From Paracoccaceae bacterium (lineage in GTDB: Bacteria > Pseudomonadota > Alphaproteobacteria > Rhodobacterales > Rhodobacteraceae), in contig JALHOL010000005.1 in the NCBI GenBank assembly GCA_022843025.1, positions 1 to 64,000 on the forward strand: a stretch of 64,000 nucleotides of DNA, in the 5' to 3' direction. The translations under genes and the position numbers were made by a program. How positions within the stretch are numbered: position 1 is the first letter of the stretch; the number at the start of each line of letters is the position of its first letter. This document shows positions 25,683 through 63,673 of this stretch, in pieces. The notes below the pieces were generated by a model. The model worked only from the letters and a program-made list of their open reading frames with translations, ran no database searches and had not been told where the DNA came from.

Positions 25683-26300
25683 TCACACGTCGATGAATAC
25701 GGTTTCGCCGTCGCCCTGCAACCGGATATCGAAGCGATAGGTGGATGGCCCGGTCGCAATAGCGATCAGCGTCGCCACGCGGGCGCGCTGCTCGATACTT
25801 CCAAGCACAGGGTCGGCAGCATGGGCGGCGGTGTCTTCGGGAAAGTACATCCGCGTGTTCAACCCGATGTTGATGCCCCGTGAGACAAGCCAAAGGTTCA
25901 GATGCGGCGCCTGCATCCGGCCCGCACGGCCCGCAACCGGACCGGGCTTGACGGTTTCAAACCGAAAAAGCCCTGTGTCAAAATCTGAAATCACCCGGCC
26001 CCACCCACGAAAGCCCGGCGCGCAATCGGCCGCGCGGGGATCTTCCGGATGGGGGTAGATGCCGTTCGCATCCGCCTGCCAGACCTCGATCAGCACATCC
26101 TTGATCGGCGCACCCAGACCATCGAACACTTGGCCTTCGATGGTGACTCGGGGGCCGGGAACACCTTCGGGCGCAAGGATCTGGCCCAGTTCGGTCTCAA
26201 AGGTATGAAATCCGGCGGCACCGGGGGCCAGCCCGATATGGACATAGGGACCAGCGGTTTGCGAGGCGCTTTCGCGCAGGTAGGGCAAGGTTTGGACCAT
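25683..26300 (-). CDS. pcaG: Protocatechuate 3,4-dioxygenase alpha subunit
   Basis: Non-catalytic partner of PcaH in the intradiol dioxygenase that opens protocatechuate between the hydroxyl carbons. Start at the ATG at 26300 (MVQTLPYLRES), one base after the pcaH stop; the frame continues upstream only by chance. 205 residues. Family motifs are ASQTAGPYVHIGLAP, VTIEGQVFDGLGAPI, EVWQADANGIYPHP and PHLNLWLVSRGINIGLNTR. As usual for the alpha chain, the iron-ligand Tyr/His set of the beta chain is incomplete. Confidence 0.94.
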   Translation of the reverse strand: MVQTLPYLRESASQTAGPYVHIGLAPGAAGFHTFETELGQILAPEGVPGPRVTIEGQVFDGLGAPIKDVLIEVWQADANGIYPHPEDPRAADCAPGFRGWGRVISDFDTGLFRFETVKPGPVAGRAGRMQAPHLNLWLVSRGINIGLNTRMYFPEDTAAHAADPVLGSIEQRARVATLIAIATGPSTYRFDIRLQGDGETVFIDV

Positions 26301-26301
26301 C

Positions 26302-27024
26302 TCAGTTCCCCTCAAGTCGGTTTTCAAAGAGCGTCGACCGCCGCCCGCGCAGCACGATGTCAAACTTATAGGCCAGACAATCCATAGGCACGGCAGAATT
26401 CAGATCAAGCACGGCAATCAGTTGCTGCACCGCCTGCGGGTCGGGGATGGTCTGCACGATCGGGCATTTCGGGATCAGCGGATCGCCCTCAAAGTAAAGC
26501 TGCGTGATCAGGCGCTGGCTGAACGACGTGCCAAAAACGGAGACATGGATATGCGCGGGCCGCCAGGAGTTGACATAGTTCAGCCACGGGTAAGGCCCGG
26601 GCTTGATGGTGCGAAAGGCATATCGGCCCTCAGCATCGGTCAGCGTGCGCCCGCAGCCGCCAAAGTTCGGGTCCAGCGCACCCAGATACGCGTCTTTCTT
26701 GTGGCGATACCGACCCGAGGCGTTGGCTTGCCAGATTTCGACCAAGGTATTCGGTACGGGGCGGTTGTTCTCGTCAAGAACCCTGCCCTGCAGAATGATC
26801 CGCTCGCCCACCGGCAGACCGCCGTGGTTGAAGTTCAGCGTCAGGTCATTGTCGAGCGCGCCGATGTCATTGTGCCCGAAGGTCGGCCCGGTGATTTCGG
26901 ACACGGTCTGTTGCAGCGTCAAAAGCGCGTTACGGGGCGATCGTGGCACGCTGGTCTTGTAACCCGGATGGTGGGCAGGCGGATGCACGTTGCGGTCGCG
27001 CATGTAGAATTCGGCGGGCTTCAT
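26302..27024 (-). CDS. pcaH: Protocatechuate 3,4-dioxygenase beta subunit
   Basis: Catalytic, Fe(III)-binding subunit. Ligand residues are visible: Tyr in SGRYRHKKD, Tyr in PGPYPWLN, and two His in [11 protein letters not shown]. Other family motifs are [13 protein letters not shown] and [13 protein letters not shown]. 240 residues, the normal length. The start overlaps the pcaC stop by four bases and pcaG follows after one base, so the two subunits are translated in tandem. Confidence 0.95.
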
Positions 27025-27407
27025 CGGGTGACCTCCTGCTCCATGGCGGCGAAAACCTCCTTGGCGATCGAAATGGCATGGTTGGCGCGCGGCACACCCG
27101 CATAGATGGCGACATGCAACAGCGCCTCCATCACGTCGGATTGCGTGGCACCGGTGTTGCGGGTGGCCCGGATGTGCATGGCCAATTCGTGATCGTTGCC
27201 CAGCCCCGCAAGCAAGGCGATGGTCAGCATCGACCGTTCGCGCAACGAAATGGTATCGCGCGACCAGACATGTCCCCAGGCGGCATCGGTGATCAACGCC
27301 TGAAAGGGGGCGTCAAACGGGGTCTTTGCTGCCTCGGCGCGGTTCACATGGGCATCGCCCAGGACGCGGCGGCGGGTTGTCATGGCCGTCTTGGTCAGGT
27401 CAGACAT
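27021..27407 (-). CDS. pcaC: 4-carboxymuconolactone decarboxylase
   Basis: 128-residue AhpD-like all-helical protein that decarboxylates 4-carboxymuconolactone to 3-oxoadipate enol-lactone. Motifs are [53 protein letters not shown] and [19 protein letters not shown]. It overlaps pcaD by eight bases and pcaH by four, consistent with one transcript from the pcaD promoter. Confidence 0.94.
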
Positions 27408-28185
27408 GGGCGTGGGCTTTCAGGAAAGGCGAGACGATAGCAGCCCAGGCTGCGGGCGTCTCGACGCAAGGCAGGTGGCCTGCGCCAGGGATGATATGGA
27501 ACGCGGCGCCCGGGATAAGGGCCGCAGTGGCCTGCACCAGATCAGGGGGGCTCGCCCCATCTTCTGATCCGGCGATCACCAGCGTTGGCAGGCGCAAGGC
27601 GGCGGTGGCGCTGCTCTGATCCGCAGTGGCAAGCGCGTGACACGCAGCGACATAGCCTTCGGCCGGCGTGCGCAGCAACATGTTGCGCCAAGGGGCACAG
27701 GACGGACTGGCTCGGAACGGGGCGGCAAACCACCGCTCCATCACCGCATCAGCGATAGACCCAAGCCCGTGCGACGTAACGGCATCAATCCGGGCCTGCC
27801 AGCTTTCCAAGGTACCAAGACGAGCGGCGGTGTTGGACAGGACCAACGCGCGCACAAGGTCGGGGCGCTGGCTGGCGACGACCTGCCCGATCAGCCCGCC
27901 AATGGAAAGCCCGACAAAGACGATCGGGCCGCCGCCCAACGCCTCGATCACTGCAATCGCATCCGCGGCATGATCCTCGATCCGTGTCCCGCTGCCATGA
28001 TCCGACAGGCCATGCCCGCGCTTGTCATAGCGCACCAGCCGCAGGCCCAGCGGCAAAAGGGGGAGCACGGCATCCCAAAGGCGCAGATCGGTGCCCAGCG
28101 AATTGGCAAAAACCACCGCGGGCGCGCCCTCTGGGCCATCAGTCTGGATGTGAAGGGCGCCAAAGGGCCGGGTCAGAACTTGCAT
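27400..28185 (-). CDS. pcaD: 3-oxoadipate enol-lactonase
   Basis: Alpha/beta hydrolase hydrolysing 3-oxoadipate enol-lactone to 3-oxoadipate. The ATG at 28185 (MQVLTRPFGALHIQTD) gives 261 residues; a longer frame to 28239 runs into the regulatory region. Motifs are FANSLGTDLRLWD, VRYDKRGHGLSD, nucleophile elbow VGLSIGGLIGQ, IAGSEDGASPP (acid region) and IPGAGHLPCVE (His). First gene of the pca operon, divergent from pcaQ. Confidence 0.92.
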   Translation of the reverse strand: MQVLTRPFGALHIQTDGPEGAPAVVFANSLGTDLRLWDAVLPLLPLGLRLVRYDKRGHGLSDHGSGTRIEDHAADAIAVIEALGGGPIVFVGLSIGGLIGQVVASQRPDLVRALVLSNTAARLGTLESWQARIDAVTSHGLGSIADAVMERWFAAPFRASPSCAPWRNMLLRTPAEGYVAACHALATADQSSATAALRLPTLVIAGSEDGASPPDLVQATAALIPGAAFHIIPGAGHLPCVETPAAWAAIVSPFLKAHAHV

Positions 28186-28250
28186 CACTGTCTCTCCAAT
28201 CCATAATATAACCGGAACAGAATGGGTGAAGAAATGCAAAATGGCTGCAT

Positions 28251-28274
<24 letters not shown>
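28186..28274. promoter_or_regulatory. pcaD-pcaQ divergent control region
   Basis: The spacer between the divergent operon and regulator contains ATAACC at 28208-28213, identical to the left half of the PcaQ box described in rhizobia (ATAACC-N4-GGTTAA), but the right half is not conserved. Around the pcaQ start lie a perfect palindrome TGCATATGCA (28246-28255) and an 8-base inverted repeat, ATGCATAA at 28251-28258 and TTATGCAT at 28267-28274. Binding by PcaQ is inferred. Confidence 0.45.
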
Positions 28275-30382
<2,108 letters not shown>

Positions 30383-47565: not shown

Positions 47566-47889
47566 TTAGGCCGACGTTGTCAGCGGCTGAATGCGTCCTG
47601 CTTGAAACGTATCGGCCATGCGCGTCAGTTCCACGCGCTTGACCACGCCACCTTTGGCAAAGGGGTCGCCCATGGCAAAGGCTCGGGCGGCGGTCTCATC
47701 CGCAGCCTCGATGATCCCAAAGTTCCCAATCCCTTCGCCGGACCCGTTCCAAAGCGCAGACCCTGTCAACACCCGGGCCAATCCATTGCCGCCCGAGGCC
47801 ACCCATTCGCGGTGCTGCGGGCGCAACTGATCGCGCAGGGCGGCGATATCGGCGCCCGGATGATGCGGGCAGACCATCAGAAAAAACAT
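47566..47889 (-). CDS. YciI-like protein
   Basis: 107 residues with the YciI/ferredoxin-like fold pattern: MFFLMVCPHHPGADIAALRDQL, LRPQHREWVASG, DPFAKGGVVKRVELTRM. YciI-type proteins include muconolactone-isomerase-like and chloro-dienelactone-related enzymes. The start meets the LigB stop at 47889, so it is co-transcribed with the ring-cleavage enzymes and may isomerise the open-chain product. That role is inference. Confidence 0.75.
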   Translation of the reverse strand: MFFLMVCPHHPGADIAALRDQLRPQHREWVASGGNGLARVLTGSALWNGSGEGIGNFGIIEAADETAARAFAMGDPFAKGGVVKRVELTRMADTFQAGRIQPLTTSA

Positions 47890-48728
47890 CAGGCGTTCTC
47901 CAGCAACACCATCCCCGCGCCGGTCATCGAGGCGGGGGCAAAGTAGTGGCGGTGCAAGGTGTTCACCGTCTCATCCATGCAGCCGCGCATCACCAGCCAC
48001 ATGATCAACTCCGCCCCTTCTGACCCGAACACTTCGACATAATCCTCGCGTGTCATGTCGCGATAGCGCTGCGGGTTCGGGCCGATCTCGGCGATCCATT
48101 TGCGATCCTCAGCCGGGTTGATATAGCCCGCCCGCGCACCCTGCAATTGATGCGACAACCCGCCGGTGCCCAGCACAATCACCTTCTCATCCGTTGGCCA
48201 GCTTTCGATGGCAGCGCGCAGCGTGCGCCCCAGATCCCACATGCGTTGCGGCGTAGGTATCGGATACTGGATGGTGTTCACGAGGATCGGCACCACCTTT
48301 ACTGGCCAGGCCTCTGGCCTGCCAAAGACCAGTTCCATCGGCACCTGCATGCCATGGTCCACATCAAGCTCGCGGCAGATCATCGGGTCGAAATGGCGCG
48401 ACACCATCTGATCTGCCAGATGCCAGGCAAAGTCGGCAGCCCCCTCAAAGGATGGCACCGGACGCGGACCCCAACCCTCATCGATCGGGGCATAGCTGTC
48501 GGCTACACCAAGGGCCAGCGTCGGCACTCGGTCCAGGAAAAAGGCATTGCCATGATCGTTGAAGATCACGACTGCAATGTCGGGCTTTTGCGCCGCCACC
48601 CAATCCTGCGCCGGGGTATAACCGTCAAAGAACGGCTTCCACTCGTCCGAATGCCGCAGACCTTTATCGAGTGCCGCAGCAATAGAGGGCACATGGCTCG
48701 TGCCGATCCCGCCAATCAATCTAGCCAT
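47889..48728 (-). CDS. ligB: LigB-type class III extradiol dioxygenase, catalytic subunit
   Basis: 279 residues. Fe(II) ligands are recognisable: His12 in GTSHVPS, His59 in FNDHGNAF, Glu240 in SEGAELIMW; His193 in GGLSHQLQG matches the catalytic acid/base His. Spacing follows Sphingobium LigB with a constant offset of about two. The family cleaves protocatechuate, gallate or 3-O-methylgallate between C4 and C5. The start overlaps by eight bases the gene for a hydrolase-LigA fusion, which supplies the LigA part. The absence of ligC and ligI nearby favours gallate or 3-O-methylgallate as physiological substrate. Confidence 0.9.
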   Translation of the reverse strand: MARLIGGIGTSHVPSIAAALDKGLRHSDEWKPFFDGYTPAQDWVAAQKPDIAVVIFNDHGNAFFLDRVPTLALGVADSYAPIDEGWGPRPVPSFEGAADFAWHLADQMVSRHFDPMICRELDVDHGMQVPMELVFGRPEAWPVKVVPILVNTIQYPIPTPQRMWDLGRTLRAAIESWPTDEKVIVLGTGGLSHQLQGARAGYINPAEDRKWIAEIGPNPQRYRDMTREDYVEVFGSEGAELIMWLVMRGCMDETVNTLHRHYFAPASMTGAGMVLLENA

Positions 48729-49758
48729 TTGTCACCTTCCCCAGCCGGGTATCCAGAAACGCATCAAGGCTCATCCCCGCCTGGGCTGCACCGATCGCGC
48801 GGATAGGCGTCGGGTCAACAGCCGAAATCTTCAGGATATAGAACAGGTTGCCACCAAGGCGGACCATCGCTTCCCAATCCCGCGCCAGCACGGCACTGCG
48901 TTGTTCGGGCGTCAGGGCAAAGCGGTCCAGATAGGCCGTTTCATCCGCCAGAAATGCCGCGCGGCCCTCGGGCGTGGACAGACCCATCGCCATCTTGTTC
49001 AACGCATAGCCGGTATTGGACCGGGGCCGGTCAAACAGGGGCGTATCCGGAATACGGTCAAGCTCGGCATCTGCCGTAGCCACACCGCGCGCCCAGTCCG
49101 CCACAACCGCTGCAACAACCGCCGGCTGTTCGACAGGCGCGAAATGACCGGCATCTTCAATGATCTCCAGCCGGGCCTGCGGGCACAGGCGGGCAATGTC
49201 TTCATGCTGGGCGATCGGGCTCCAGACGTCCTGCCGTCCCACCACCAGAAGCATGGGCCCCTTGAAGGTTAGGCTTGCCCCCGCATCTGGCCGGTCCAGC
49301 AACGCGCGCAACTGGCGTTCGTGAATGGCCGGCGTCATGCGCAGGCACATCGCTGTCAGGTCTGCCATCAGTCCAGGGTAAGATTCGGCCCCCGCGCGCA
49401 ACATGCCCGGCAGCCATGCCGCCGCCAGCGCCGCCATGCCTTGACCATTTGCCAGATCGATCATTGCCTGACGCTTGGCCTCTTCCCCCTCGCGCCGGGG
49501 GTGGATACCGGTATTCAGCAGGGCCATCCCGGCAATACGCCCCGGTGCCATTCGGGCCATCTCCATGGCTACGCGCCCGCCCATCGAATGGCCTGCCAGG
49601 ATCAGACGCCCCGAATGCCGGGCCAAAAGATCGCGCGCCATATCGGGGATACTTGCTTGGGTCGTGACGTCAGCCACAACGCTTGGCAGAGCGGCGGTCA
49701 CAGAGGCCCAGACAAATTCGTCGGACACAAGGCCCGGGATCAGCAGCAGCGTCGCCAT
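48721..49758 (-). CDS. Alpha/beta-hydrolase fused to LigA (4,5-dioxygenase small subunit)
   Basis: Single uninterrupted frame of 345 residues with two domains. Residues 1-225 form an alpha/beta hydrolase: LIPGLVSDEFVW, nucleophile elbow AGHSMGGRV (Ser58), acid in VVGRQDVWSP (Asp177), and DAGHFAPVEQP (His205). Residues about 236-340 are LigA-like: IPDTPLFDRPRSNTGYALNKM, FLADETAYLDRF, LARDWEAMVRLGGNLFYILKI, GAAQAGMSLDAFL. LigA is normally a separate chain of about 120-140 residues. The gene is followed by ligB with an eight-base overlap. The hydrolase may act on the methyl ester formed when 3-O-methylgallate is cleaved. First gene after the ligM-type terminator. Confidence 0.88.
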   Translation of the reverse strand: MATLLLIPGLVSDEFVWASVTAALPSVVADVTTQASIPDMARDLLARHSGRLILAGHSMGGRVAMEMARMAPGRIAGMALLNTGIHPRREGEEAKRQAMIDLANGQGMAALAAAWLPGMLRAGAESYPGLMADLTAMCLRMTPAIHERQLRALLDRPDAGASLTFKGPMLLVVGRQDVWSPIAQHEDIARLCPQARLEIIEDAGHFAPVEQPAVVAAVVADWARGVATADAELDRIPDTPLFDRPRSNTGYALNKMAMGLSTPEGRAAFLADETAYLDRFALTPEQRSAVLARDWEAMVRLGGNLFYILKISAVDPTPIRAIGAAQAGMSLDAFLDTRLGKVTNG

Positions 49759-49817: not shown

Positions 49818-51221
49818 TTAGCGTTTGGTCCGCCAGCTATCGGCATAGTTGGTGCGCGCCTCGGCGGCATAAGGCGTGGCCGCCACGCGCACGCGGATTT
49901 CCGTCTGGCGATGCGGCTCGGTCGAGGTTTTGCCGGTCGTTTCCGGCTCGCCCCATTTCAGGGTCAGGATGTCATTCTCCTGCACGTCCTGCGACACGAC
50001 CCCCAGCGAAAGCATGCAGCGTTCGTTGTAGGAATAGCCGTTGAACATGCTCATCCCGACCATCTTGTCGCCTTGCATCACCATGTCAGCACTGGAAGAC
50101 GCATAGTTCGGCTGCGGGAAATCGATCCACTTGAACGGCACGCCTGGTTCGAAATTCGACGCGATGACTTTCAGCACATCGTCGCGGTTCCATTCGAAGG
50201 TGACCTTCTTGCGGTTCTTGGACGAACCCTTCATCGCCTGCAGCGCGGCCTTGCCGATGAAATCGTCCTTCTTCCACCCGATATAGAAATCGTAACCCAG
50301 CTCGAACGGGTTGACGTAATAATCCTCGATGTTGTCAGACACGAAGCTGCCACCGATGGCGCCTGCGGCCTCATAGCTGTCGGCACCCAGCCAGTCACGG
50401 TAGTCCTTCAACATGCCGTCACCGGTATAGATCCCGGGCAGGGGCGACGGGATCCAGCCCGATTCCAGCGTGTTGGTCGAATAGGCACGGCTGCCGCACT
50501 GCACCAGATTCACACCCGCATCGCGGGCAGCCTGCAGGATGGTCGAGTGGATGTAATCCTTGTCCTTGTAAGGCCCCCAGATCTCCAAACCGGGCGCGCC
50601 CGACATGCCATGACGCAGAGCCTGCACCTTTTTCGATCCGATATTGATCCAGTCGACGTGGAAGAACTTGATGTCCGGCACCGGACCGCCGTTCATTTTC
50701 TCAAAGATCCTCGGCGCATCGGGGCCCTGAATCTGAAAACGGTAATGCTCGCGCAGCACGCGCTCACCTTCGGGGCGCGACGGGCTGCGCGGGTCATAGC
50801 GCAGGCGCACGTTCCACTTGCCATAAGCCGCACAGAACATCAGCCAGTTCGACGTCGGCGCGCGGCCAACAAGGATGTACTTGTCCTCACGCTCGCGAAA
50901 GATGATGTGGTCGCCGATGACATGGCCGTTGGGCGTGACCGGAACAAAGTGCTTGGCGCGGTTCAGGTCGAAATTCGAGAATGAGTTGATGCCGTGATGC
51001 GACAGGAATTCGGTCGCCTGCGGGCCTTCGACGATCACTTCGTCCATGTGGTGGCTCTGATCGAACAGCACGGCAGTCTGACGCCAGGCCACCTGTTCGT
51101 TGCGCCAGTTCTGGAATTCCGGCGCCACGACCGGATAGACATACATACCGGCCTTGGAATTGCGCAGCATGGTAACAGGATTGCCGGCCGCGGCCATCGC
51201 GGTTGAAAGGCTTTGCGCCAT
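49818..51221 (-). CDS. Tetrahydrofolate-dependent vanillate/syringate O-demethylase (LigM/DesA type)
   Basis: 467 residues from the ATG at 51221 (MAQSLSTAMAAAGNPVTML), with GGGAGG upstream; LigM and DesA are of the same size. GcvT-like aminomethyltransferase fold: VAWRQTAVLFDQSHHMDEV, GVNLVQCGSRAYSTNTLESG, YYVNPFELGYDFYIGWKKDD, FIGKAALQAMKG. Family members move the methoxy methyl group to tetrahydrofolate: LigM on vanillate and 3-O-methylgallate, DesA on syringate. Which substrate applies cannot be read from the sequence. A metF homologue further on would recycle methyl-tetrahydrofolate. Two TGTATACA sites upstream link it to the adjacent GntR regulator. Confidence 0.9.
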   Translation of the reverse strand: MAQSLSTAMAAAGNPVTMLRNSKAGMYVYPVVAPEFQNWRNEQVAWRQTAVLFDQSHHMDEVIVEGPQATEFLSHHGINSFSNFDLNRAKHFVPVTPNGHVIGDHIIFREREDKYILVGRAPTSNWLMFCAAYGKWNVRLRYDPRSPSRPEGERVLREHYRFQIQGPDAPRIFEKMNGGPVPDIKFFHVDWINIGSKKVQALRHGMSGAPGLEIWGPYKDKDYIHSTILQAARDAGVNLVQCGSRAYSTNTLESGWIPSPLPGIYTGDGMLKDYRDWLGADSYEAAGAIGGSFVSDNIEDYYVNPFELGYDFYIGWKKDDFIGKAALQAMKGSSKNRKKVTFEWNRDDVLKVIASNFEPGVPFKWIDFPQPNYASSSADMVMQGDKMVGMSMFNGYSYNERCMLSLGVVSQDVQENDILTLKWGEPETTGKTSTEPHRQTEIRVRVAATPYAAEARTNYADSWRTKR

Positions 51222-51244
51222 CGATTTCTCCTCCCTCAGAGATA

Positions 51245-51316
51245 TGTATACATAGTGCGAGGGATTTCGGATCATATCAAGCGAAACTCGCCCAATTTCA
51301 CCCCATTATGTATACA
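51245..51316 (-). promoter_or_regulatory. Two TGTATACA operators upstream of the O-demethylase
   Basis: Perfect 8-base palindromes TGTATACA at 51245-51252 (extended ATGTATACAT) and 51309-51316, 64 bases apart, in the spacer between the GntR gene stop and the O-demethylase ATG at 51221. The nearer one is 24 bases from the start codon, consistent with repression. Confidence 0.7.
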
Positions 51317-51323
51317 AAATCCT

Positions 51324-52055
51324 TCAGTTGGCCAGAATTGCCAGACTGGGCACACCTTCCCGCAGCGCCGCTTCATGTGTCAGTAGAAACTCGACATTCC
51401 GCCGCGCCGCGCGGGCATGTTCGCGGGCCAGCGATTCGGCCCGAAACCCCTCGCGATTACGTATAGCCTCGATGATGGCGCGGTGCTGATCCTGGGCGGC
51501 GGCAAGGGTCTTGACCAGCTCCGCCTGCCGCGACTGATCATCCAAAAAGGCCGAGGGCGAGGCAAAGGGCAAAGCCGTAATCCGTTCAATCTCGCGGATC
51601 AGAACCTCACTTTGCGACAGACGGGCAAGAAGGTGATGAAATCCGGCATTGAAGCGCGAATATGCTTCCATATCAAAGATATCAGCCCGAAATAGCGCAT
51701 CGATCCCGCGCAGGATACCACCCGCTTCCGCCAGCAATGCCTCGGGTGCGCCCCGCTCTGCCGCAAGCCGCGCGGCAGTGCCTTCCAGCACACCGCGCAG
51801 CTCGATCGTATCCACCACATCGGCCACCGCAAAGCTGCGCACCACAAAGCCGCCCCCAGCCGTGCGGTCCAGCAATGCCTCTTCGGCAAGCCGCGACAGG
51901 GCCGCCCGGACGGGCGTGCGCGAAATGCCAAGCTCCTCCGCTAGGGCCACCTCATAAAGCCGGGTACCCCCCGGCAGATCGCCGCCCAGGATGCGCTGAC
52001 GAAGCGTGATCAACGCCCGTTGTGCGTGCGTGGAACTGCGTTCTTCCGATGCCAT
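51324..52055 (-). CDS. GntR family (FadR/FCD) regulator
   Basis: 243 residues from the ATG at 52055 (MASEERSSTHAQRAL), with GGAGGG upstream. N-terminal winged helix: LRQRILGGDLPGGTRLYEVAL, LAEELGISRTPVRAALSRLA. C-terminal FCD domain: VVDTIELRGVLEGTAARLAAE, FNAGFHHLLARLS (metal-ligand His region), HRAIIEAI, REHARAARRNVEF. Four identical TGTATACA palindromes flank the gene, two in its own promoter and two before the O-demethylase gene, so it probably represses both, with an aromatic acid or ring-cleavage product as inducer. Confidence 0.87.
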   Translation of the reverse strand: MASEERSSTHAQRALITLRQRILGGDLPGGTRLYEVALAEELGISRTPVRAALSRLAEEALLDRTAGGGFVVRSFAVADVVDTIELRGVLEGTAARLAAERGAPEALLAEAGGILRGIDALFRADIFDMEAYSRFNAGFHHLLARLSQSEVLIREIERITALPFASPSAFLDDQSRQAELVKTLAAAQDQHRAIIEAIRNREGFRAESLAREHARAARRNVEFLLTHEAALREGVPSLAILAN

Positions 52056-52067
52056 AGCAACCCTCCA

Positions 52068-52110
52068 TGTATACACAACCAGCATAGCAGCGCTGATTGC
52101 CATGTATACA
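52068..52110 (-). promoter_or_regulatory. Two TGTATACA operators upstream of the GntR gene
   Basis: TGTATACA at 52068-52075 and 52103-52110, 35 bases apart. The first is directly beside the ribosome binding site of the GntR gene (ATG at 52055), the second just after the amidohydrolase stop at 52116. They match the pair before the O-demethylase, indicating autoregulation. Confidence 0.7.
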
Positions 52111-52115
52111 TCGGG

Positions 52116-52997
52116 TTACATCTTCAGAATGCGCCGCGCGTTTTCCTTCAGGATCAGGGGCCGCACTTCATCGCGGATCGGCAGATCGGCAAAATCCTTC
52201 AACCACCGGTCTGGGGTGATCGCAGGCCAGTCCGATCCGAACAGCATCTTATGCTTCAGAATGGTGTTGGCATAATGCACGAAGATCTGCGGGAAATACT
52301 TCGGCGACCAGCCAGACATGTCGATATAGACGTTCGGCTTGTGCTGGGCCACGGCCAGCCCCTGCTCGGTCCACGGGAAGGACGGATGCGCCAGCACGAT
52401 CGTCATGTCGGGAAAGTCCACCGCCACATCGTCGATGTGAATCGGGTCGGAATACTTCAGCCGCATTCCCATGCCGCCATGCATCCCCGACCCCACGCCG
52501 GTCTGCCCGGTATGGAACAACGCGATGGCGCCTTCCTCTTGAATGGCCTCATAAAGCGGATAGGCCATCCGGTCGTTTGGAAAGAAACCTTGCATGGTCG
52601 GGTGAAACTTGAACCCCTTGACCCCAAACTCGCGCACCAGACGCCGCGCTTCACGCGCGCCAAGCTTGCCCTTAGCGGGGTCGATGCTTGCAAAGGGGAT
52701 CAGAACGTCGCCGTTTTCGGCGGCCAACTGGGCGATTTCCTCGTTGTTGTGCCGATAGAAACCCGTGTTGCGCTCTGCATCCACGCCAAAGATCACCGCG
52801 GCAATCTTGCGCTCACGGTAATAAGCGGCGGTTTGCGGCACGGTTGGCAACATGCCGTCAACGCCCGCGGGATTGCGGAAATAGGCCGCCATCCCGGCCT
52901 GAAACTCGTTGTAACCATCATCACGGTGGCAGTTGCAAGGCTCTTCGGCATGCGTGTGAAAGTCGATGGCGATGATGTCGTCAAGGTTCATGGCCAT
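52116..52997 (-). CDS. Amidohydrolase-family (Amidohydro_2) enzyme, CouO-like by context
   Basis: 293 residues. Metal-site motifs are IIAIDFHTHAEEP (HxH), GFKFHPTMQGF, ALFHTGQTG, IVLAHPSFPW and KMLFGSDWPAITPD. The family includes decarboxylases and hydrolases of aromatic compounds. Its start shares a base with the stop of the crotonase gene, so the two are co-translated. With the crotonase, acyl-CoA synthetase, SDR and MarR genes it matches the gene set of the Rhodococcus cou system, where the amidohydrolase member CouO is implicated in hydrolytic removal of the acetyl unit. 4-oxalomesaconate hydratase (LigJ-type) is an alternative, but galB is already present. Confidence 0.78.
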   Translation of the reverse strand: MAMNLDDIIAIDFHTHAEEPCNCHRDDGYNEFQAGMAAYFRNPAGVDGMLPTVPQTAAYYRERKIAAVIFGVDAERNTGFYRHNNEEIAQLAAENGDVLIPFASIDPAKGKLGAREARRLVREFGVKGFKFHPTMQGFFPNDRMAYPLYEAIQEEGAIALFHTGQTGVGSGMHGGMGMRLKYSDPIHIDDVAVDFPDMTIVLAHPSFPWTEQGLAVAQHKPNVYIDMSGWSPKYFPQIFVHYANTILKHKMLFGSDWPAITPDRWLKDFADLPIRDEVRPLILKENARRILKM

Positions 52998-53785
52998 CAG
53001 TCCTTCGGCGCTTCAAGCTTGGCAGTGCGCTTTTCCAGAAAGGCGCGCAGGCGTTCGGTCGCCTCGGGCGTCACGCTGGTCAAGGACGACATCAGGCTTT
53101 CCACGAACAACCCATCTTCGGATGACATGTCACGAATGCGCGGCAGGGCGTTGATGATGGCATAGTTCGACATCGGCGCGTTCTGCGCGGCGACCTTGGC
53201 CAACTCAATGGCCTTTTCCAGTGCGCGGCCTTCGGGCACCACATAGCTCACGCCGCCCCACTGCTCCATCTGCACCGGCGATACAGTGCGGCCGGTCAGC
53301 ATCATGTCACCCATGCGCTGCGATCCGATCAGCCGCGCAATCCGCACTGCCCCGCCACCACCAACGAAAATGCCGCGCGTGCCTTCGGGCAGCCCGAAGA
53401 AGGCACTCTCTTCGGCCACACGCACATGCGCCGCTGCGGCGAGTTCGAACCCACCACCCACAACGGCCCCCTTCAGCGCGACAACAAAGGGAATGACGCC
53501 CCGCTCGATCCCGTCAAAAATCTTGTGCCAGCGGCGCGATCCCTGCACTGCGGCGATCAACGGCTTTTCTGCATGTTCGGCCAGATCAAGCCCGGCGCAG
53601 AAATGCTTGCCCTCCCCAAAGATCACGGCGGCCTTGGCCTCGTGCTGGGCCGCCTCCACCGCCAGATGCAGCGCCTCGACCACCCGGTCACTGATGGCAT
53701 TCCGTTTGGCCGGACGGTTCAGCCCGATCAGGGCGATGCCATCGCGCAGCTCATAGGTCACCAACTGCTCAATGCTACCGTCCAT
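52997..53785 (-). CDS. Enoyl-CoA hydratase/crotonase, hydroxycinnamoyl-CoA pathway
   Basis: 262-residue crotonase: IALIGLNRPAKRNAISDRV, GKHFCAGLDLAEHAE (oxyanion), VVGGGFELAAAAHVRVAEES, FGLPEGTRGIFVGGGGA, and LTGRTVSPVQMEQWG. The active-site segment differs from classical feruloyl-CoA hydratase-lyase, which carries SEINWGIPPG here, so simple hydration of feruloyl- or coumaroyl-CoA (CouM-like) is as likely as hydration plus retro-aldol cleavage to vanillin. Divergent from the feruloyl-CoA synthetase and coupled to the amidohydrolase. Confidence 0.82.
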   Translation of the reverse strand: MDGSIEQLVTYELRDGIALIGLNRPAKRNAISDRVVEALHLAVEAAQHEAKAAVIFGEGKHFCAGLDLAEHAEKPLIAAVQGSRRWHKIFDGIERGVIPFVVALKGAVVGGGFELAAAAHVRVAEESAFFGLPEGTRGIFVGGGGAVRIARLIGSQRMGDMMLTGRTVSPVQMEQWGGVSYVVPEGRALEKAIELAKVAAQNAPMSNYAIINALPRIRDMSSEDGLFVESLMSSLTSVTPEATERLRAFLEKRTAKLEAPKD

Positions 53786-53827
53786 GTCCTGCTCCTTCGC
53801 GGCTTTGTGCCCGCACAGGGCCCCGCA

Positions 53828-53912
53828 GATAGTTATATCGAATAAACATTATGGTGTAAACATCTCTTGCGCAAATCTGCCATCTCGCCTACTGTTATAT
53901 TCAATAACTATC
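53828..53912. promoter_or_regulatory. Divergent control region of the hydroxycinnamate genes
   Basis: A 9-base inverted repeat, GATAGTTAT (53828-53836) and ATAACTATC (53904-53912), brackets the spacer. It overlaps two similar 13-mers, TTATATCGAATAA (53833-53845) and TTATATTCAATAA (53895-53907), 62 bases apart. These paired AT-rich near-palindromes are plausible binding sites for the MarR regulator encoded downstream, controlling both directions. Confidence 0.5.
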
Positions 53913-53952
53913 GGCCGTCATCTTCTGGTATCCGGCTGCATTCGGGGGGAAC

Positions 53953-55791
53953 ATGCCAGGCGACACTTTTCAATCCGTTGGCAACGGCGCGGTACCGCTG
54001 CTTCGGGAAACCCGGCCTGATGGCACGGTCCTGATCCGGCAAACGGCAGAACTGCCCGCGTGGCCGCGCTGCATGACCGCACGCTTCATGCATTGGGCCG
54101 ACGTCGCGCCTGACCGGTTGTGGATGGCCGAACGCGGTGCCGACGGCGCATGGGTACGCATGACCTATGGGCAGGGCGCGCAGGCGATCCGTGCCATCGG
54201 TTCGGCCTTGCTGCAACAGGGCCTTTCGGTGGATCGCCCTTTGCTGATTCTGTCCGGCAACAGCCTGTCGCATGCGCTGATGGCTTTGGGCGCGCAGCAT
54301 GTCGGCATCCCTTCTGCCGCGCTGTCACCCGCCTATGCCCTGTCGGGCGAGGATCGGGGAAAGCTGTCGCAGGTTGTGGTACAATTGACGCCGGGCATGG
54401 TCTTTGCCGATCATGCCGCAAGGTTCCTGCCTGCCATAGATGCTGTTCTGTCGCCCGATGTCGCGCTCGTCAGCCAGACCGGACGCAGCGACACCCGCGC
54501 CTCATTGTCGTATGACAGCCTGCTCGCCACCACACCTACCCCCGAGGCCGATGCCGCCCATGCGTCTGTCGGGCCTGAAACGGTGGCAAAATTCCTGTTC
54601 ACATCTGGCACCACAGGCAGCCCCAAGGCGGTGATCCAGACACAGGCCATGCTGTGCTCCAATCAGGTGATGATCGCAGACGCCTATGCCTTTCTGTCGC
54701 AAGAGCCGCCGGTTCTGGTGGACTGGGCGCCGTGGAACCACACCGCCAGCGGCAACAAGGTGTTCAACATGGCCATCTTCCATGGTGGCACCTATTACAT
54801 CGACGATGGCCGCCCCACACCAAACGACATCGGCCGCACGATCCGCACCCTGCGCGAAATTGCCCCGACATGGTACTTCAACGTGCCCGTGGGCTATCAA
54901 TTCCTTCTCGACGCAATGGAAACGGATGAGGCGCTGGCCGATACCTTCTTCTCGCGCCTCCGGATGCTGATGTATGCGGGCGCGGGCATGAGCCAGCCGG
55001 TCTGGGATCGTCTTGCCGCAGTGGCCGCCCGCAAGGTGGTGGGCGGCGTGCCGATCGTGTCGGGTCTTGGCGCCACGGAAACCGGGCCCTTCGCGCTGTA
55101 CTACAGCGACAAAAAGGATCGCCCCGGCAATATCGGCGTGCCTGCCCTTGGGGTTACGCTGAAGCTGGTCCCGCAAGAGGGCAAGCTTGAGGCGCGGCTG
55201 AAAAGCCCCTCGATCACGCCGGGCTACTGGCGCAATCCGGCGCTGACGGCAGCGGCTTTCGATGAAGAAGGCTATTACAAACTGGGCGATGCGCTGCGCT
55301 ATGCCGTACCGGATGAACCCGCCGCAGGCTTCATCTTTGATGGCCGACTAGCCGAAAACTTCAAACTGGCCACGGGCACATGGGTCGCCGTAGGCGCTCT
55401 GCGGGCGGCACTGGTCAATGCGATGGGCGGCCTCATTTCAGACGCGGTGATCGCTGGCGAAGAGAAAGACGATCTGCGCGCCCTTCTGGTTCCGAACTGG
55501 ATCGCGCTGCGCGAGCTTGCGGGCGGTGCAGACGATGTTTTGGCCCATCCGGCCGTGCTGGCCACCCTGGCGGAACGGCTTTCGGCCCATGCCCGCGCGG
55601 CCACGGGCAGCGCGACCCGCGTGGTGGCCGCTCTCATCCTTGAAGAACCGCTCAGCTTTGACCGGGGTGAGGTGACAGACAAAGGGTCCGTCAATCAGCG
55701 CGCCGTCCTGCGTGAACGGGCCGATCTTGCAGCCTCGCTCTGGACAGGCGGGTCCCACGTCATTCTGGCCGACTGGAAGGGAAAGAAATGA
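53953..55791 (+). CDS. fcs: Feruloyl-CoA synthetase
   Basis: 612-residue ANL-superfamily ligase activating hydroxycinnamic acids with ATP and CoA. P-loop FLFTSGTTGSPKAVI, SGLGATETGPFALYYSD, and ENFKLATGTWVAVGALR, the last typical of the long Fcs subgroup, as is TDKGSVNQRAVL near the C-terminus, where the catalytic Lys is expected. The length agrees with Pseudomonas Fcs. Expected substrates are ferulate, caffeate and 4-coumarate. Divergent from the crotonase gene, and overlaps the SDR gene by four bases. Confidence 0.88.
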   Translation: MPGDTFQSVGNGAVPLLRETRPDGTVLIRQTAELPAWPRCMTARFMHWADVAPDRLWMAERGADGAWVRMTYGQGAQAIRAIGSALLQQGLSVDRPLLILSGNSLSHALMALGAQHVGIPSAALSPAYALSGEDRGKLSQVVVQLTPGMVFADHAARFLPAIDAVLSPDVALVSQTGRSDTRASLSYDSLLATTPTPEADAAHASVGPETVAKFLFTSGTTGSPKAVIQTQAMLCSNQVMIADAYAFLSQEPPVLVDWAPWNHTASGNKVFNMAIFHGGTYYIDDGRPTPNDIGRTIRTLREIAPTWYFNVPVGYQFLLDAMETDEALADTFFSRLRMLMYAGAGMSQPVWDRLAAVAARKVVGGVPIVSGLGATETGPFALYYSDKKDRPGNIGVPALGVTLKLVPQEGKLEARLKSPSITPGYWRNPALTAAAFDEEGYYKLGDALRYAVPDEPAAGFIFDGRLAENFKLATGTWVAVGALRAALVNAMGGLISDAVIAGEEKDDLRALLVPNWIALRELAGGADDVLAHPAVLATLAERLSAHARAATGSATRVVAALILEEPLSFDRGEVTDKGSVNQRAVLRERADLAASLWTGGSHVILADWKGKK

Positions 55792-56549
55792 TGGAGATCG
55801 CAGGCGCACATATCGCGGTCACCGGGGGCGGGTCGGGTCTGGGCGAGGCTGTGGCGCAGGCTCTTGCCGGGCGCGGCGCAAAGGTCACGGTGATCGATCG
55901 CAACGCCGAGGGCGCGGCGCGGGTGGCTGCCGCCATCGGGGGCCATGCGCTGGCGCTTGATGTGACGGACGAAGCCGCCGGTGCTGCGCTGGACAACGCG
56001 ATTGCTGCGATGGGTCCCCTCCGTGGGCTGGTGAACTGTGCCGGAATTGGCGGGGCTGCCCGGATTGTCGGCCGCGAAGGGCCGATGGCACTCGACGCGT
56101 TCGAACGCACCATTCGCGTCAACCTGATCGGAACTTTCAACATGCTGCGCCTTGCCGCAGCACGGATGCAAGGGAACGCTCCCGATGCCGACGGCGGGCG
56201 CGGCGCCATTGTGAACACAGCCTCGGTCGCCGCCTTTGATGGTCAGGTCGGCCAGGCCGCCTATGCGGCCTCAAAGGGCGGAATCGTGGCGCTTGCCCTT
56301 CCGGCTGCGCGTGAACTTGCGCGTTTCGGCATCCGGGTGAACACGGTCGCCCCTGGCATCTTCTTGACACCGCTTCTGGCAGAACTGCCGCCCGAGGTGC
56401 AGCAGGGCATCGCCGCCCAGGTCGCCTTTCCAAACCGTCTTGGCAATCCGGCGGAATTTGCCGACGTGGTCCTGATGTGCCTGACCAACAGCTATCTGAA
56501 CGCCGAAGTGATCCGCCTGGATGGCGGAGTGCGCTTGCCGCCAAAGTAA
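55788..56549 (+). CDS. SDR dehydrogenase, probable 3-hydroxyacyl-CoA dehydrogenase
   Basis: 253 residues with the short-chain dehydrogenase pattern: IAVTGGGSGLGEAVAQALAG, LVNCAGIGGAAR, NTASVAAFDGQVGQAAYAASKG (Ser and YxxxK), and RVNTVAPGIFLTPLL. The overall shape is close to HSD17B10-type 3-hydroxyacyl-CoA dehydrogenases. Coupled to fcs by four bases, it would oxidise the 3-hydroxy-3-arylpropanoyl-CoA made by the crotonase (CouN-like role), pointing to a beta-oxidative rather than retro-aldol route. Substrate inferred. Confidence 0.82.
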   Translation: MMEIAGAHIAVTGGGSGLGEAVAQALAGRGAKVTVIDRNAEGAARVAAAIGGHALALDVTDEAAGAALDNAIAAMGPLRGLVNCAGIGGAARIVGREGPMALDAFERTIRVNLIGTFNMLRLAAARMQGNAPDADGGRGAIVNTASVAAFDGQVGQAAYAASKGGIVALALPAARELARFGIRVNTVAPGIFLTPLLAELPPEVQQGIAAQVAFPNRLGNPAEFADVVLMCLTNSYLNAEVIRLDGGVRLPPK

Positions 56550-59324: not shown

Positions 59325-60071
59325 ATGACATCCGCCGAAACAGCCCCCAAAACCGCCCTTATCATCTCGGCCCATGCCGCCGATTTCGTCTGGCGTTGTG
59401 GTGGGGCGATCGCGCTGCATGCCGCGATGGGCTATCAAGTCACGGTCGTCTGCCTGTCCTTCGGCGAACGCGGCGAAAGCGCCAAGCTGTGGAAAAAGCC
59501 CGGCATGACGCTCGACGTGGTCAAAGCCGCGCGTCGGACCGAGGCCGAGGCGGCAGCCAAAGCGCTGGGTGTCCATGATCTGATCTGCCTTGATCTGGGC
59601 GACTACCCGCTCCGCCTGACGGATGATGACAAGATGCGCCTCGTCGACATCATCCGCGACGTGGAGCCCGCTTTCATGATGAGCCACAGCGCCTTTGACC
59701 CCTATAACACCGATCACATGTACACCACGCAGGTGGCGCTGGAATGCCGGATGATCGCGCAGGCCTGGGGCCACAACCCCGGGCAAAAGGTGCTTGGCGC
59801 ACCACAGCTGTACCTCTTTGAACCGCACCAGACCGAACAGATGGGTTGGAAGCCGGACGTCTTTCTCGACATCACCCCGGTCTGGGACAAAAAGCGTGCC
59901 GCCATCGAATGCATGGCCGGGCAGGAACACCTGTGGGAGTTCTACACCCGCGTTGCCCAGAACCGCGCGAACCACTTCCAGCGCAATTCGGGCGGCATGT
60001 CGGGCGGGCGGCAGGCAGCCTATGCCGAAGGCTTTCAGTCGATGTTCCCCCGCACGGTGGATGAACTCTGA
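59325..60071 (+). CDS. galB: 4-oxalomesaconate hydratase, GalB (PIG-L deacetylase fold)
   Basis: 248 residues with the PIG-L-like zinc motif ALIISAHAADFVWRCGGAIAL (AHxxD), CLSFGERGESAKLW and MSHSAFDPYNTDHMYTT. The size and fold match GalB of Pseudomonas putida, which hydrates 4-oxalomesaconate to 4-carboxy-4-hydroxy-2-oxoadipate and is unrelated to LigJ-type hydratases. Co-located galC and galD support the assignment. Its stop overlaps the start of the VOC dioxygenase by one base (TGATG). Confidence 0.9.
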   Translation: MTSAETAPKTALIISAHAADFVWRCGGAIALHAAMGYQVTVVCLSFGERGESAKLWKKPGMTLDVVKAARRTEAEAAAKALGVHDLICLDLGDYPLRLTDDDKMRLVDIIRDVEPAFMMSHSAFDPYNTDHMYTTQVALECRMIAQAWGHNPGQKVLGAPQLYLFEPHQTEQMGWKPDVFLDITPVWDKKRAAIECMAGQEHLWEFYTRVAQNRANHFQRNSGGMSGGRQAAYAEGFQSMFPRTVDEL

Positions 60072-61021: not shown

Positions 61022-61954
61022 ATGGCCGTATTGCCGTTTCGCCCTGCCCAATCCGATGCGAATGCCCTGCGTCCGCGCACCATCGCACAGGGCTATTCGA
61101 TCGAGGTGATGCCGCGCACCGCCGCCAAAATCGCAGATTTCCGCGCGCTGCTGCCGCCCGCAACGCGCATCTATATCGCCCATCTGGATGGCACGCCCTT
61201 TGCCGAAATGCTGGATTGCGCAAAGCGCCTCACAGGCGAAAGCTTTGCCGTCATGCCCCATCTTCCGGCACGGATCATCCCAGATCGGGCCACGCTGGAC
61301 CTCTGGCTGAACCGCTATGCCACAGAGGCAGGGGTCACTCAGGCGCTGGTGCTCGCAGGTGGGCCAAAAACCCCGGCGGGGGATTTCGACAACTCGATGC
61401 AACTGCTGGAAACCGGTCTGTTTGATCGCCACGGATTTACCCGCCTGCATGTCGCCGGCCACCCCGAAGGCAACCGCGACATTGATCCCGACAGATCGAC
61501 ACGGCTGGTCGATGAAGCCGCACGCTGGAAACAGGATTTCGCCAACCGCACTGGGGCAGCAATGGCCATGACAACCCAATTCGCCTTCGACGCAGGTCCG
61601 GTACTGGACTGGGCCGATCGGCTGGCCGATGCCGGGGTCGCACTACCCGTCCATGTCGGTGTATCCGGGCCCGCAAAGCTGCAAACGCTGATCAAGTTCG
61701 CCATCGCCTGCGGCGTCGGCCCCTCGCTCTCGGTTCTGCAAAAGCGGGCGCGCGATCTGTCAAGGCTCTTGCTCCCCTTCACCCCGGATGATGTTTTGTC
61801 CGATCTCGCCACAGGCATGGCCGCGGGGCGCGGACGCAACATCGCAGGCATCCACATCTTCCCCCTTGGCGGCATCGCAACAGCAGCAACCTATGCCAAA
61901 ACGCTGAACGAAACGGCCGCCCGGCAGGGTGGCCTCGGGGGTGGCGTGGCATGA
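61022..61954 (+). CDS. metF: Methylenetetrahydrofolate reductase-like protein (MetF)
   Basis: 310 residues with the MTHFR barrel pattern: [20 protein letters not shown] at the N-terminus, [17 protein letters not shown] and [16 protein letters not shown] with flavin/folate-binding residues, and [18 protein letters not shown]. It would interconvert methyl- and methylene-tetrahydrofolate, returning the cofactor loaded by the LigM/DesA-type O-demethylase to the one-carbon pool. The sphingomonad ligM cluster likewise contains metF. Overlaps galC by four bases. Confidence 0.82.
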
Positions 61955-62622
61955 GCGTTGTCATCCGTAACATCCCCCGCGCAAAACCCGAAGTCATCGA
62001 CGCGCTGGCCCGCGCCGGTGTGGCCACGGTCCATGAGGCGCAGGGCCGCAAAGGGTGCCTGCACAGCTACATGCGCCCGATTTATGCGGGTGCGCAGGTG
62101 GCAGGCAGCGCAGTAACCATCAGCGCACCACCGGGCGACAACTGGATGCTGCATGTCGCCATCGAACAGCTGCAACCCGGCGACCTTCTGGTTCTTGCCC
62201 CGACCAGCCCCTGCGACAACGGCTATTTCGGCGATCTTTTGGCCACCTCTGCGCAGGCGCGCGGTTGCCGGGGCCTGATCATCGACGCGGGCGTCCGCGA
62301 TGTGCGCGACCTCACAGCGATGGGCTTCCCGGTCTGGAGCAAGGCCATCTCAGCACAGGGCACGGTCAAGGAAACCTTGGGTTCGGTCAATGTGCCCATC
62401 GTCTGCGCCGGGCAGACCATCGAGGCGGGCGACGTGATCGTCGCCGATGATGACGGCGTGGTCGTGGTCCGCTGCGCCGAGGCCGAGGCAGTGCTCGCTG
62501 CTGCCGAAGCCCGACTTTCCGCCGAAGCCGCCAAGCGCGAAAAGCTTGCCGCGGGGACGCTGGGCCTTGATCTTTACAACATGCGTCCGGCCCTTGCGGC
62601 CAAGGGTCTCAAATATGTCTGA
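61951..62622 (+). CDS. galC: 4-carboxy-4-hydroxy-2-oxoadipate aldolase/oxaloacetate decarboxylase
   Basis: 223-residue class II aldolase of the HMG/CHA aldolase (RraA-like) family: [44 protein letters not shown] with the metal-site Asp and Arg, and [19 protein letters not shown]. It splits 4-carboxy-4-hydroxy-2-oxoadipate into pyruvate and oxaloacetate, the final step of gallate or protocatechuate 4,5-cleavage. Overlaps metF by four and galD by eight bases. Equivalent to LigK. Confidence 0.92.
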
Positions 62623-63673
62623 CGCGGGCATCCCCTGCCTTTGGATGCGCGGCGGCACATCAAAGGCGGCGGTGTTCCTTGGCTCGGACCTGCCCGCCGA
62701 TGCGGTTGCGCGCGACCAGCTTTTGCTGCGGATCATGGGCAGCCCCGACCCACGCCAGATCGATGGCATCGGCGGGGCCGACCCGCTCACCTCAAAGGTG
62801 GCGATCCTCTCCCGCTCCAACCGGCCCGATGCCGATGTGGACTACCTATTCCTGCAAGTCTTCGTCGATCAGGCGCTGGTGTCAGATGCGCAGGGTTGCG
62901 GCAACATCCTTGCCGCGGTCGGCCCCGCTGCCATCGAACGCGGGCTGGTTGCCGCTGCGGGCAGCATGACGCCGGTCCGCATTCACATGGTCAACACCGG
63001 CGAAGTCGCGCGGGCCGAGGTGCAGACCCCAGACGGTCGCGTCCGCTATGACGGGGGCACCGCGATCGACGGCGTTCCCGGCACCGCTGCACCCATCCCT
63101 CTTCTGTTCCAGAACATCGCAGGCTCGATGTGCGGCAGCCTGCTGCCGACCGGCCGCGTACGGGATGTGATCGACGGGGTAGACTGCACCTTGATCGACA
63201 ACGGAATGCCCATCGTCATTCTCCGCGCCTCAGATTTCGGCCTGACCGGGCAGGAAACCTGCGCAGAGATCGAAGCGATGGATCAGGTCAAGGCGCGGAT
63301 CGAGCGTATCCGCCTGCAAGCCGGGGGCCTGATGGGTCTTGGTGACGTGACCACGGCCTCTGTACCCAAGATGACCTTGGTCTCGGCGCCAATCAACGGT
63401 GGCGCAATCAACACCCGCAGCTTCATTCCAAAGCGCGTCCATTCCTCGGTCGGGGTTTTTGCTGCCATCTCTGTGGCCACCGCCTGCCTGATGCCAGACA
63501 GCCCGGCAGCCAAACTGGCGGTAATCCCCGCCGATGGCCGCTTTTCCATCGAACACCCCTCTGGGGCAACCGAGGTGTTTCTCGACATCGACGCCGATCA
63601 CAACGTCCGTGGCGCAGGCTCGAACCGAACCGCCCGCAAACTGATGGACGGACGGGCTTTCCCGCGCTTGTGA
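62615..63673 (+). CDS. galD: 4-oxalomesaconate tautomerase, PrpF family
   Basis: 352 residues from the ATG at 62615 ([19 protein letters not shown]); the frame reaches further back only inside galC. PrpF-fold motifs are [33 protein letters not shown] and [17 protein letters not shown] with the active-site Cys, plus TCLM-like [14 protein letters not shown]. GalD tautomerises the keto or enol form of 4-oxalomesaconate before hydration by GalB. End of the gal operon. Confidence 0.9.

Follow-up and report, generated by a model that had tools for sequence, protein, structure and literature searches.

The 64-kb stretch of DNA analysed here (the window) carries, at 48721..49758 on the minus strand, a gene of 345 aa in which an alpha/beta hydrolase is fused to LigA, as judged by Pfam, NCBIfam and alignment to 1b4u. 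The frame opens with an ATG at 49758 and its stop codon ends at 48721; the plus-strand frame over the same interval is interrupted by an internal stop. The hydrolase domain (residues 1-227; 49078..49758, minus strand), assigned by Pfam, Foldseek and alignment A1, carries the triad Ser58, Asp177 and His205. The junction or linker (residues 225-243; 49030..49086, minus strand), placed from the predicted model and a reading of the codons, leads into the LigA domain (residues 228-345; 48724..49077, minus strand), assigned by Pfam and alignment. The fused gene overlaps ligB by 8 bp, the start of ligB lying inside its last 8 bases. An earlier sequence-only reading of this DNA, which gave no strand, had described one frame with a complete Ser58-Asp177-His205 hydrolase and a complete LigA, overlapping ligB (47889-48728) by eight bases, and had called for a domain search. 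The 345-aa ORF, Pfam and the 1b4u alignment bear out the frame, the overlap is correct, and in the search the Abhydrolase and LigA profiles both scored above their gathering cut-offs.

The hydrolase part is matched by Abhydrolase_1 (7e-15) and by Abhydrolase_6 (4.9e-13, residues 38-218). Ser58, Asp177 and His205 are conserved in all 22 hydrolase rows of alignment A1 and, together with the Pfam matches and the fold found by Foldseek, place this part in the alpha/beta hydrolase superfamily. The nearest fold is a Thermogutta terrifontis esterase, followed by an Alistipes feruloyl esterase and the PcaD enol-lactonase, with BioH lower. LigA (PF07746) is matched at 4.6e-29 and 100.8 bits, against a gathering cut-off of 25.3, over residues 253-338 (profile 1-86 of 87), and LigA of SYK-6 (1b4u chain A) aligns with residues 231-335 without a gap over 105 residues. 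An AlphaFold2 model of the fused protein, built on alignment A1 (33 rows), shows two domains with a mean pLDDT of 89.9 and a pTM of 0.71, the mutual orientation of the domains being a feature to be read with caution. Only in the linker, at 236-243, does pLDDT fall below 50 over at least 3 residues.

The ligB gene (47889..48728, minus strand; 279 aa) encodes the catalytic subunit of a class III extradiol dioxygenase, as judged by Pfam, NCBIfam and individual residues. The Pfam profile is matched at 188.8 bits against a cut-off of 26.3, which establishes class III extradiol membership, and the protein keeps His12, His59, Glu240, His125 and His193, which match the iron-binding residues and catalytic histidines described in LigAB/DesB. 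The gallate dioxygenase model NF009904 is matched at 300.2 of the required 412 bits by LigB and at 49.7 of 412 by the LigA part; the model describes LigB and LigA as a single chain, so that a split enzyme could hardly reach the cut-off. NCBIfam models of the protocatechuate dioxygenase alpha subunit match the fused protein from about residue 230, all below the curated cut-offs; the equivalog model for the protocatechuate 4,5-dioxygenase alpha subunit (TIGR02792) gives 85.6 bits against 108.6.

Phe103 of SYK-6 LigA is reported, in the part of the source available, to control selectivity at C5 of the substrate (PMC10094722). The corresponding residue of the window's LigA is Ile319, and the position holds Ile, Leu or Met in all 19 LigA rows of alignment A1; the window's LigA thus lacks the Phe that marks a protocatechuate 4,5-dioxygenase alpha subunit of the SYK-6 type. 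When 13 further or overlapping LigA proteins were compared with SYK-6, Phe103 was present in two, the L119 copy beside LigI and L095. Locus L119 contains both kinds of LigA: the copy beside LigI and a LigC candidate has Phe, the hydrolase-linked copy Val. L095 is an exception, with a hydrolase-linked LigA that has Phe at this position. Equivalence of Phe103 with DesB Glu377 was considered and dropped; as the DesB alignment is uncertain in that stretch, the gapless SYK-6 alignment alone was used. The residues at the Phe103 position seem to favour C5-oxygenated substrates, 3-O-methylgallate and gallate alike.

Directly after ligB lies a YCII-family protein (47566..47889, minus strand; Pfam), a candidate CHMA isomerase or tautomerase. 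Directly upstream of the fused gene is a LigM-type tetrahydrofolate-dependent O-demethylase (49818..51275, minus strand), which matches NF047885 (vanillate/3-O-methylgallate O-demethylase) at 619.2 bits against a cut-off of 580. Matches to this model, in 42 of 249 genomes of G616's family, form one group at about 800-925 bits and a second at about 520-635, and the window's protein falls within the score range of the second. A GntR/FCD regulator (51324..52103, minus strand) comes next, and then an amidohydrolase and an enoyl-CoA hydratase on the minus strand with an acyl-CoA synthetase and an SDR on the plus strand (52116..56549), a gene set that we take to be a probable hydroxycinnamate side-chain shortening module. 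Further along, on the plus strand, are a candidate galB-type hydratase (59325..60071), of the PIG-L family by Pfam only and with no NCBIfam match, GalB being presumably a PIG-L protein; a MetF-like protein (61022..61954; 34% identical over 293 aa to the metF of a plasmid), which probably serves methyl-THF recycling; the galC/ligK aldolase (61951..62622; TIGR02798, 377 bits against 304.5); and galD, a 4-oxalomesaconate tautomerase (62447..63673; NF033377, 500.1 bits against 440). The longest ORF of galD probably starts too early, with NF033377 matching from residue 67. A catechol 2,3-dioxygenase-like gene is also found in this 59-64 kb stretch. The O-demethylase and galBCD genes that the sequence-only reading had noted nearby are thus confirmed for the LigM-type gene, galC and galD, all above their cut-offs; galB is a Pfam-only candidate and lies some 10 kb off. 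The protocatechuate 3,4-cleavage route is represented by pcaG, pcaH, pcaD and pobA (25683..30352, minus strand).

The whole genome (99.99% complete) contains one LigA match and one LigB match. It yielded no DesA above the cut-off, the best match (545 of 800 bits) being the LigM-type gene itself, and no VanA_C above the cut-off, one match reaching 22.8 of 23.5 bits. The source of 3-O-methylgallate therefore rests on the LigM-type protein.

The spread of the fused and split forms was examined by scanning named genomes with the full fused protein as query, which gave 22 related loci whose state was judged by open frames. The fusion is intact in seven of these (L007-L013) and frameshifted in one (L014). 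In 11 (L015-L021, L024-L027) two neighbouring genes encode the hydrolase and LigA, in the order hydrolase-ligA-ligB, a side-by-side state that had escaped the sequence-only reading. In the remaining three (L022, L023, L028) LigAB was not seen beside the hydrolase within the stretches examined. With one further, divergent fusion in genome G226, this answers the earlier call for a survey of the architecture in other genomes. A second LigA frame in G421 is separate from its hydrolase, and G523 (L072), which an open frame given as 406 had made look like a further fusion, was rejected and counted as split owing to a stop between the hydrolase and ligA and a frame of 134.

Within the window's family, LigA was matched in 30 of 295 genomes, the window's own included, and two of these 30 (the window's and G226) have the hydrolase-LigA fusion. 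Their LigA-bearing open frames, at 362 and 348 residues, stand apart from all others in the 30 genomes, which are shorter than 250 or longer than 430 residues; the four frames above 430 residues (G005 among them) all have LigB before LigA. In a class survey of 385 genomes, LigA exceeded the cut-off in 37, and the window's was the sole hydrolase fusion among frames of at least 250 residues; 15 such frames have LigB before LigA, nine of the 15 being distant relatives with short LigA matches. No further hydrolase fusion was found among 18 long LigA frames, LigB preceding the LigA match in all 18. Unfused forms of the architecture occur in Alphaproteobacteria and some other Pseudomonadota among the samples searched. 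No description of a hydrolase-LigA fusion was found among the titles and opening lines of abstracts listed from the open-licence PMC literature on the fusion and pathway topics.

A tree of LigA and LigB (28 rows, 200 bootstrap trees) requires three changes between the fused and split states, at least two of them forced by starred branches; the tree has eight weak inner branches and long outgroup rows. A single change was found in none of the 200 bootstrap trees. The fusion, a trait of a group of Rhodobacter-like bacteria, appears in three lineages: L013 (Roseivivax), G226, and the clade that unites the window with L007-L012 and L014. L014 was excluded from alignment A1; its LigA and LigB are in the tree, and only its N-terminal fragment in a quick hydrolase tree. 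By this tree the joining of hydrolase and ligA probably arose more than once, although the three changes may alternatively represent one gain and two losses. Probable repeated origin was another point unknown to the sequence-only reading, as were the reported stand-alone hydrolases MgaC and DesC.

The junctions differ, with a short and variable linker that is poorly ordered. The fused frame of L013 retains an AAAGGAG motif and the ligA ATG, as an intermediate might be expected to do. No ATG is present at the junction in the window or in L007-L012. The idea that the window also yields free LigA through initiation within the fused frame was considered and rejected: there are GTG codons at 219 and 226, no ATG, and no ribosome site recognised by eye. 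From a search for ligA-start ATGs only the L011 and L071 junctions were used, several other rows having hit wrong upstream ATGs. Against seven fused relatives the window's hydrolase gives dN/dS values of 0.09-0.21 and its LigA values of 0.06-0.11, which indicates that both domains are under purifying selection. Low dN/dS and the intact fusion in seven other contigs together rule out a sequencing error.

The company kept by the hydrolase was examined in 46 non-redundant loci. They were chosen for a score of 200 bits or more with any of four reference hydrolases, apart from L014 and L071, which were included manually. Within 1.5 kb of these close hydrolases, LigB occurs in 28 loci, an O-demethylase of LigM or VanA type in 25, and either in 38, as against one of 37 loci with more distant hydrolases (L119, itself hydrolase-ligA-ligB); this comparison carries a bias, since many of the close loci were fetched with a LigA-containing query and the references came from LigAB or LigM loci. 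Within 5 kb the figures are 41 of 46 and 3 of 37, most of the 37 having just 1.5 kb of flank. The five close loci with neither gene within 5 kb are L022, L032, L075, L079 and L117; one flank of L117 spans 45 bases. Of the 46 loci, 21 have a YCII protein and six a SnoaL/NTF2 protein at a distance of up to 5 kb, and none has both. Sphingomonads often have the hydrolase beside a second LigM paralogue and metF; L090, L092 and L093 have this cluster without such a hydrolase. Gene order is ligA-ligB-hydrolase on a Roseomonas plasmid, where, as in L013, a VanA-type Rieske enzyme lies nearby. On plasmid pPDL2 it is hydrolase-SnoaL-ligB-ligA; the pPDL2 hydrolase is 50% identical to the window's over residues 3-208, and its neighbour belongs to SnoaL_4 (PF13577), the family reported for MgaD in the available part of its description.

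Orthology of the fused hydrolase with DesC was rejected, since the gene in the desC position of L083 reaches only E 5.4e-4 with the family profile; four sphingomonad members score 4.6e-79 or better in the same search. That gene (L083:6886-7617) was taken as desC from the order hydrolase, VOC protein, ligM, metF, formate-THF ligase, and in SYK-6 desC is two locus tags from ligM according to the available part of PMC12997858. The fused domain probably works like MgaC/DesC, its kinship to MgaC being suggested by likeness of context through pPDL2 only. A search for MgaC itself in a Pseudomonas genome did not find it.

LigC and LigI were searched for in the ten genomes with the fusion, at E <= 1e-20 and E <= 1e-10 respectively. 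No LigC-like gene was detected in any of the ten and no LigI in nine of them, absences that are weakened by the want of a completeness figure for eight of the ten, seven of these titled MAG. A second LigI query was also blank in the window's own genome. The remaining fused genome, G226, has a LigI homologue, 53% identical. The control genome G1129, the source of both queries, matched both. The name LigI comes from the annotation of a plasmid gene that shares 57% identity with the L119 copy. The LigC query owes its name to its position downstream of ligB in L119 and to its GFO/IDH/MocA family, the family of LigC; no NCBIfam model names it. With neither gene found, the LigC-LigI route for 4,5-cleavage of protocatechuate appears to be unavailable: without LigC, the protocatechuate-derived aldehyde should have no known path to PDC, and the 3,4-route is present in the window instead. 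The substrate is very likely C5-oxygenated, either 3-O-methylgallate or gallate. Of these, the adjoining LigM could convert the former to the latter, and cleavage of gallate gives no ester.

CHMOD is, PMC8091115 concludes, the product of N. aromaticivorans LigAB acting on 3-O-methylgallate, and it turns to PDC without an enzyme. Pseudomonas sp. NGC7 requires the hydrolase MgaC for the CHMOD step; its hydrolase mutant builds up PDC, which the strain is reported, in the portion of the source available, to be unable to convert (PMC12314914). The sequence-only reading had proposed a route from 3-O-methylgallate through CHMOD to ester hydrolysis. Context, the missing LigC and LigI, the Phe103 position and the NGC7 precedent, in so far as its report is available, support it; the main substrate may alternatively be gallate, or the hydrolase may act on another ester or lactone.

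It seems probable on balance that the locus encodes a LigAB-kind class III dioxygenase whose alpha subunit is N-terminally fused to a serine hydrolase acting as a CHMOD methyl esterase. LigM-type demethylation would supply 3-O-methylgallate, with syringate as the likely precursor. The LigA domain and LigB would together build the Fe(II) active site, where 3-O-methylgallate would be opened to the methyl ester CHMOD. The Ser58-Asp177-His205 hydrolase, present 1:1 with LigA, would then strip methanol from this ester ahead of its cyclisation to PDC, a compound that the fused genomes apparently cannot use. CHMA would pass to 4-oxalomesaconate by isomerisation, the YCII protein being the candidate, and onward through GalD, GalB and GalC. 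That the fused hydrolase acts on CHMOD is likely. What the DNA itself shows is that the two domains are fused, keep their catalytic residues and are under selection, together with the order of the genes and the failure to detect LigC and LigI; substrate, product and any flux benefit of the fusion we infer.

The fusion had also been said to couple ring cleavage physically to ester hydrolysis. This is trivially true of any fusion; that the coupling matters, by channelling or by outrunning the conversion of CHMOD to PDC, is a further step, and kinetic importance of the coupling is possible but doubtful. The hydrolase-ligA-ligB order in the 11 split loci and the three state changes were counted in its favour. 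In its fullest form, which we consider rather unlikely, an (esterase-LigA)2(LigB)2 complex would de-esterify CHMOD before it leaves, the YCII protein would replace MgaD, and the joining would have evolved several times, starting from the hydrolase-ligA-ligB order and chiefly where no PDC hydrolase was detected in the genome. We give an even chance to the same pathway with a fusion that serves joint expression or 1:1 stoichiometry, CHMOD diffusing freely. Half of the related loci (11 of 22) manage with separate adjacent genes, the linker is of the short and variable kind described above, and the Shine-Dalgarno-like motif and ATG kept before LigA in L013 mean that free LigA may still be made there; against this, the three state changes and the lack of a junction ATG in the window and L007-L012 hint at some unspecified advantage of being joined.

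A hydrolase that opens PDC or another lactone, replacing the missing LigI, would suit the nine of ten fused genomes in which LigI was not found, and the PcaD enol-lactonase is among the nearest folds; yet the better-matching folds are esterases, G226 combines the fusion with a LigI homologue, and in NGC7, a strain reported as unable to convert PDC, the hydrolase mutant accumulates PDC (PMC12314914), so that we hold this improbable. Little credence is likewise given to a hydrolase working upstream, freeing gallate, syringate or ferulate from esters before LigAB opens gallate. For it speak a feruloyl esterase as second-best fold, the adjoining probable hydroxycinnamate module, and LigM-type enzymes, which can yield gallate (PMC6888825, as far as available); but there is no obvious reason to link an upstream esterase with a ring-cleavage subunit, and ligB or an O-demethylase lies within 1.5 kb in 38 of 46 against 1 of 37 loci, a biased sample in which the O-demethylase linkage would fit this explanation too. 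An assembly artefact or decaying read-through could be suspected from L014, which is frameshifted in the same gene and its neighbours (it is broken in the hydrolase, LigM and SDR regions). Given seven other intact contigs, purifying selection on both domains and a two-domain model of high mean pLDDT, its probability is negligible. The fusion thus appears real, selected and probably recurrent, with 3-O-methylgallate catabolism as its most likely role.

The handling of CHMOD decides the fate of syringyl lignin carbon, which either enters central metabolism or is lost as PDC. The fused architecture and the unfused forms point to a family of CHMOD-step hydrolases distinct from DesC, and the YCII protein is nominated as the isomerase of the step after CHMOD hydrolysis. 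The fusion also lends itself to testing, by a single active-site mutation, whether ring cleavage and ester hydrolysis are coupled.

One of the closest known systems is MgaAB with MgaC of Pseudomonas sp. NGC7, which, in the portions of its description available, likewise pairs a LigAB-type 3-O-methylgallate dioxygenase with a dedicated CHMOD alpha/beta hydrolase and has GalBCD downstream, a GntR-type regulator and no PDC hydrolase gene found (PMC12314914). According to the same source, NGC7 differs in that dioxygenase and hydrolase are separate proteins, whereas the window's are fused; that demethylation is by a Rieske VanAB rather than by LigM; and that MgaD is SnoaL-like, where the window has a YCII protein after ligB. 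MgaA is reported there as 47% identical to the C-terminus of GalA and 21% to LigA. LigAB of SYK-6 (1b4u/1bou; Sphingobium sp.) is also a class III extradiol enzyme with LigA and LigB on separate polypeptides and the same catalytic residues, but in the window LigA is preceded by a hydrolase domain, has Ile in place of Phe103 and scores below the protocatechuate equivalog cut-off. Single-chain dioxygenases of the DesB/GalA type, to which nine strong long LigA frames belong, are LigA-domain fusions too; in these LigA is joined to LigB, in the window to a hydrolase. DesC of SYK-6 and N. aromaticivorans is, like the fused domain, an alpha/beta hydrolase proposed for CHMOD, but falls in a separate hydrolase subgroup. 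The nearest solved fold, the Thermogutta terrifontis esterase (4uhc/4uhd; 27-28% identity), is thermophilic and without a LigA domain. The parts of the window's enzyme are of known kinds.

A YCII gene (47566-47889, minus strand) lies immediately 3' of ligB. Among the 46 non-redundant loci holding a close relative of the hydrolase part of the fused gene, YCII is present within 5 kb in 21 and a SnoaL/NTF2 gene in 6, and no locus carries both. Because the two never co-occur across this set, the distribution suggests that YCII and SnoaL/NTF2 substitute for each other. In the intact Roseivivax fusion (L013:8001-9077), a ribosome-site-like motif and the ATG of LigA are retained within the fused frame, and this gene might yield free LigA as well as the fused protein.

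The LysR-type regulator encoded at 57151-58395 (minus strand; 414 aa) contains two HTH_1 stretches, the best at residues 34-93, and a PcaQ-like body, the match to which begins at residue 126; its DNA-binding domain is apparently doubled. Relatives of this regulator in L016 and L017, loci where hydrolase and ligA are adjacent but separate genes, align from residues 26 and 33 to residue 409, and given these alignments the doubled domain may be conserved.

Within the gal cluster, a catechol 2,3-dioxygenase-like gene (60071-61018, plus strand) scores 297.8 bits, below the cut-off of 320.2. It is found again in the Roseivivax locus and in two loci with separate hydrolase and ligA genes (L018 and L021), next to galB or a MetF-like gene, and in Roseomonas an annotated catechol 2,3-dioxygenase comes after the hydrolase. 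The MetF-like protein of the window (61022-61954, plus strand) shares 34% identity with pLA3 metF; a Pfam search at E 0.01 matched it to no family.

In sphingomonads (L090-L096, L033, L034), a second LigM paralogue is clustered with metF, folD or purU, and several of these clusters add a hydrolase of the fused-gene type, a SnoaL protein, a methionine synthase II-like gene, an IclR regulator and LigAB. The genome stretch L119 carries two LigAB sets, one accompanied by LigI, LigJ, LigK and a LigC candidate, the other immediately behind the hydrolase; this natural pairing would suit a comparison of their substrate preferences.
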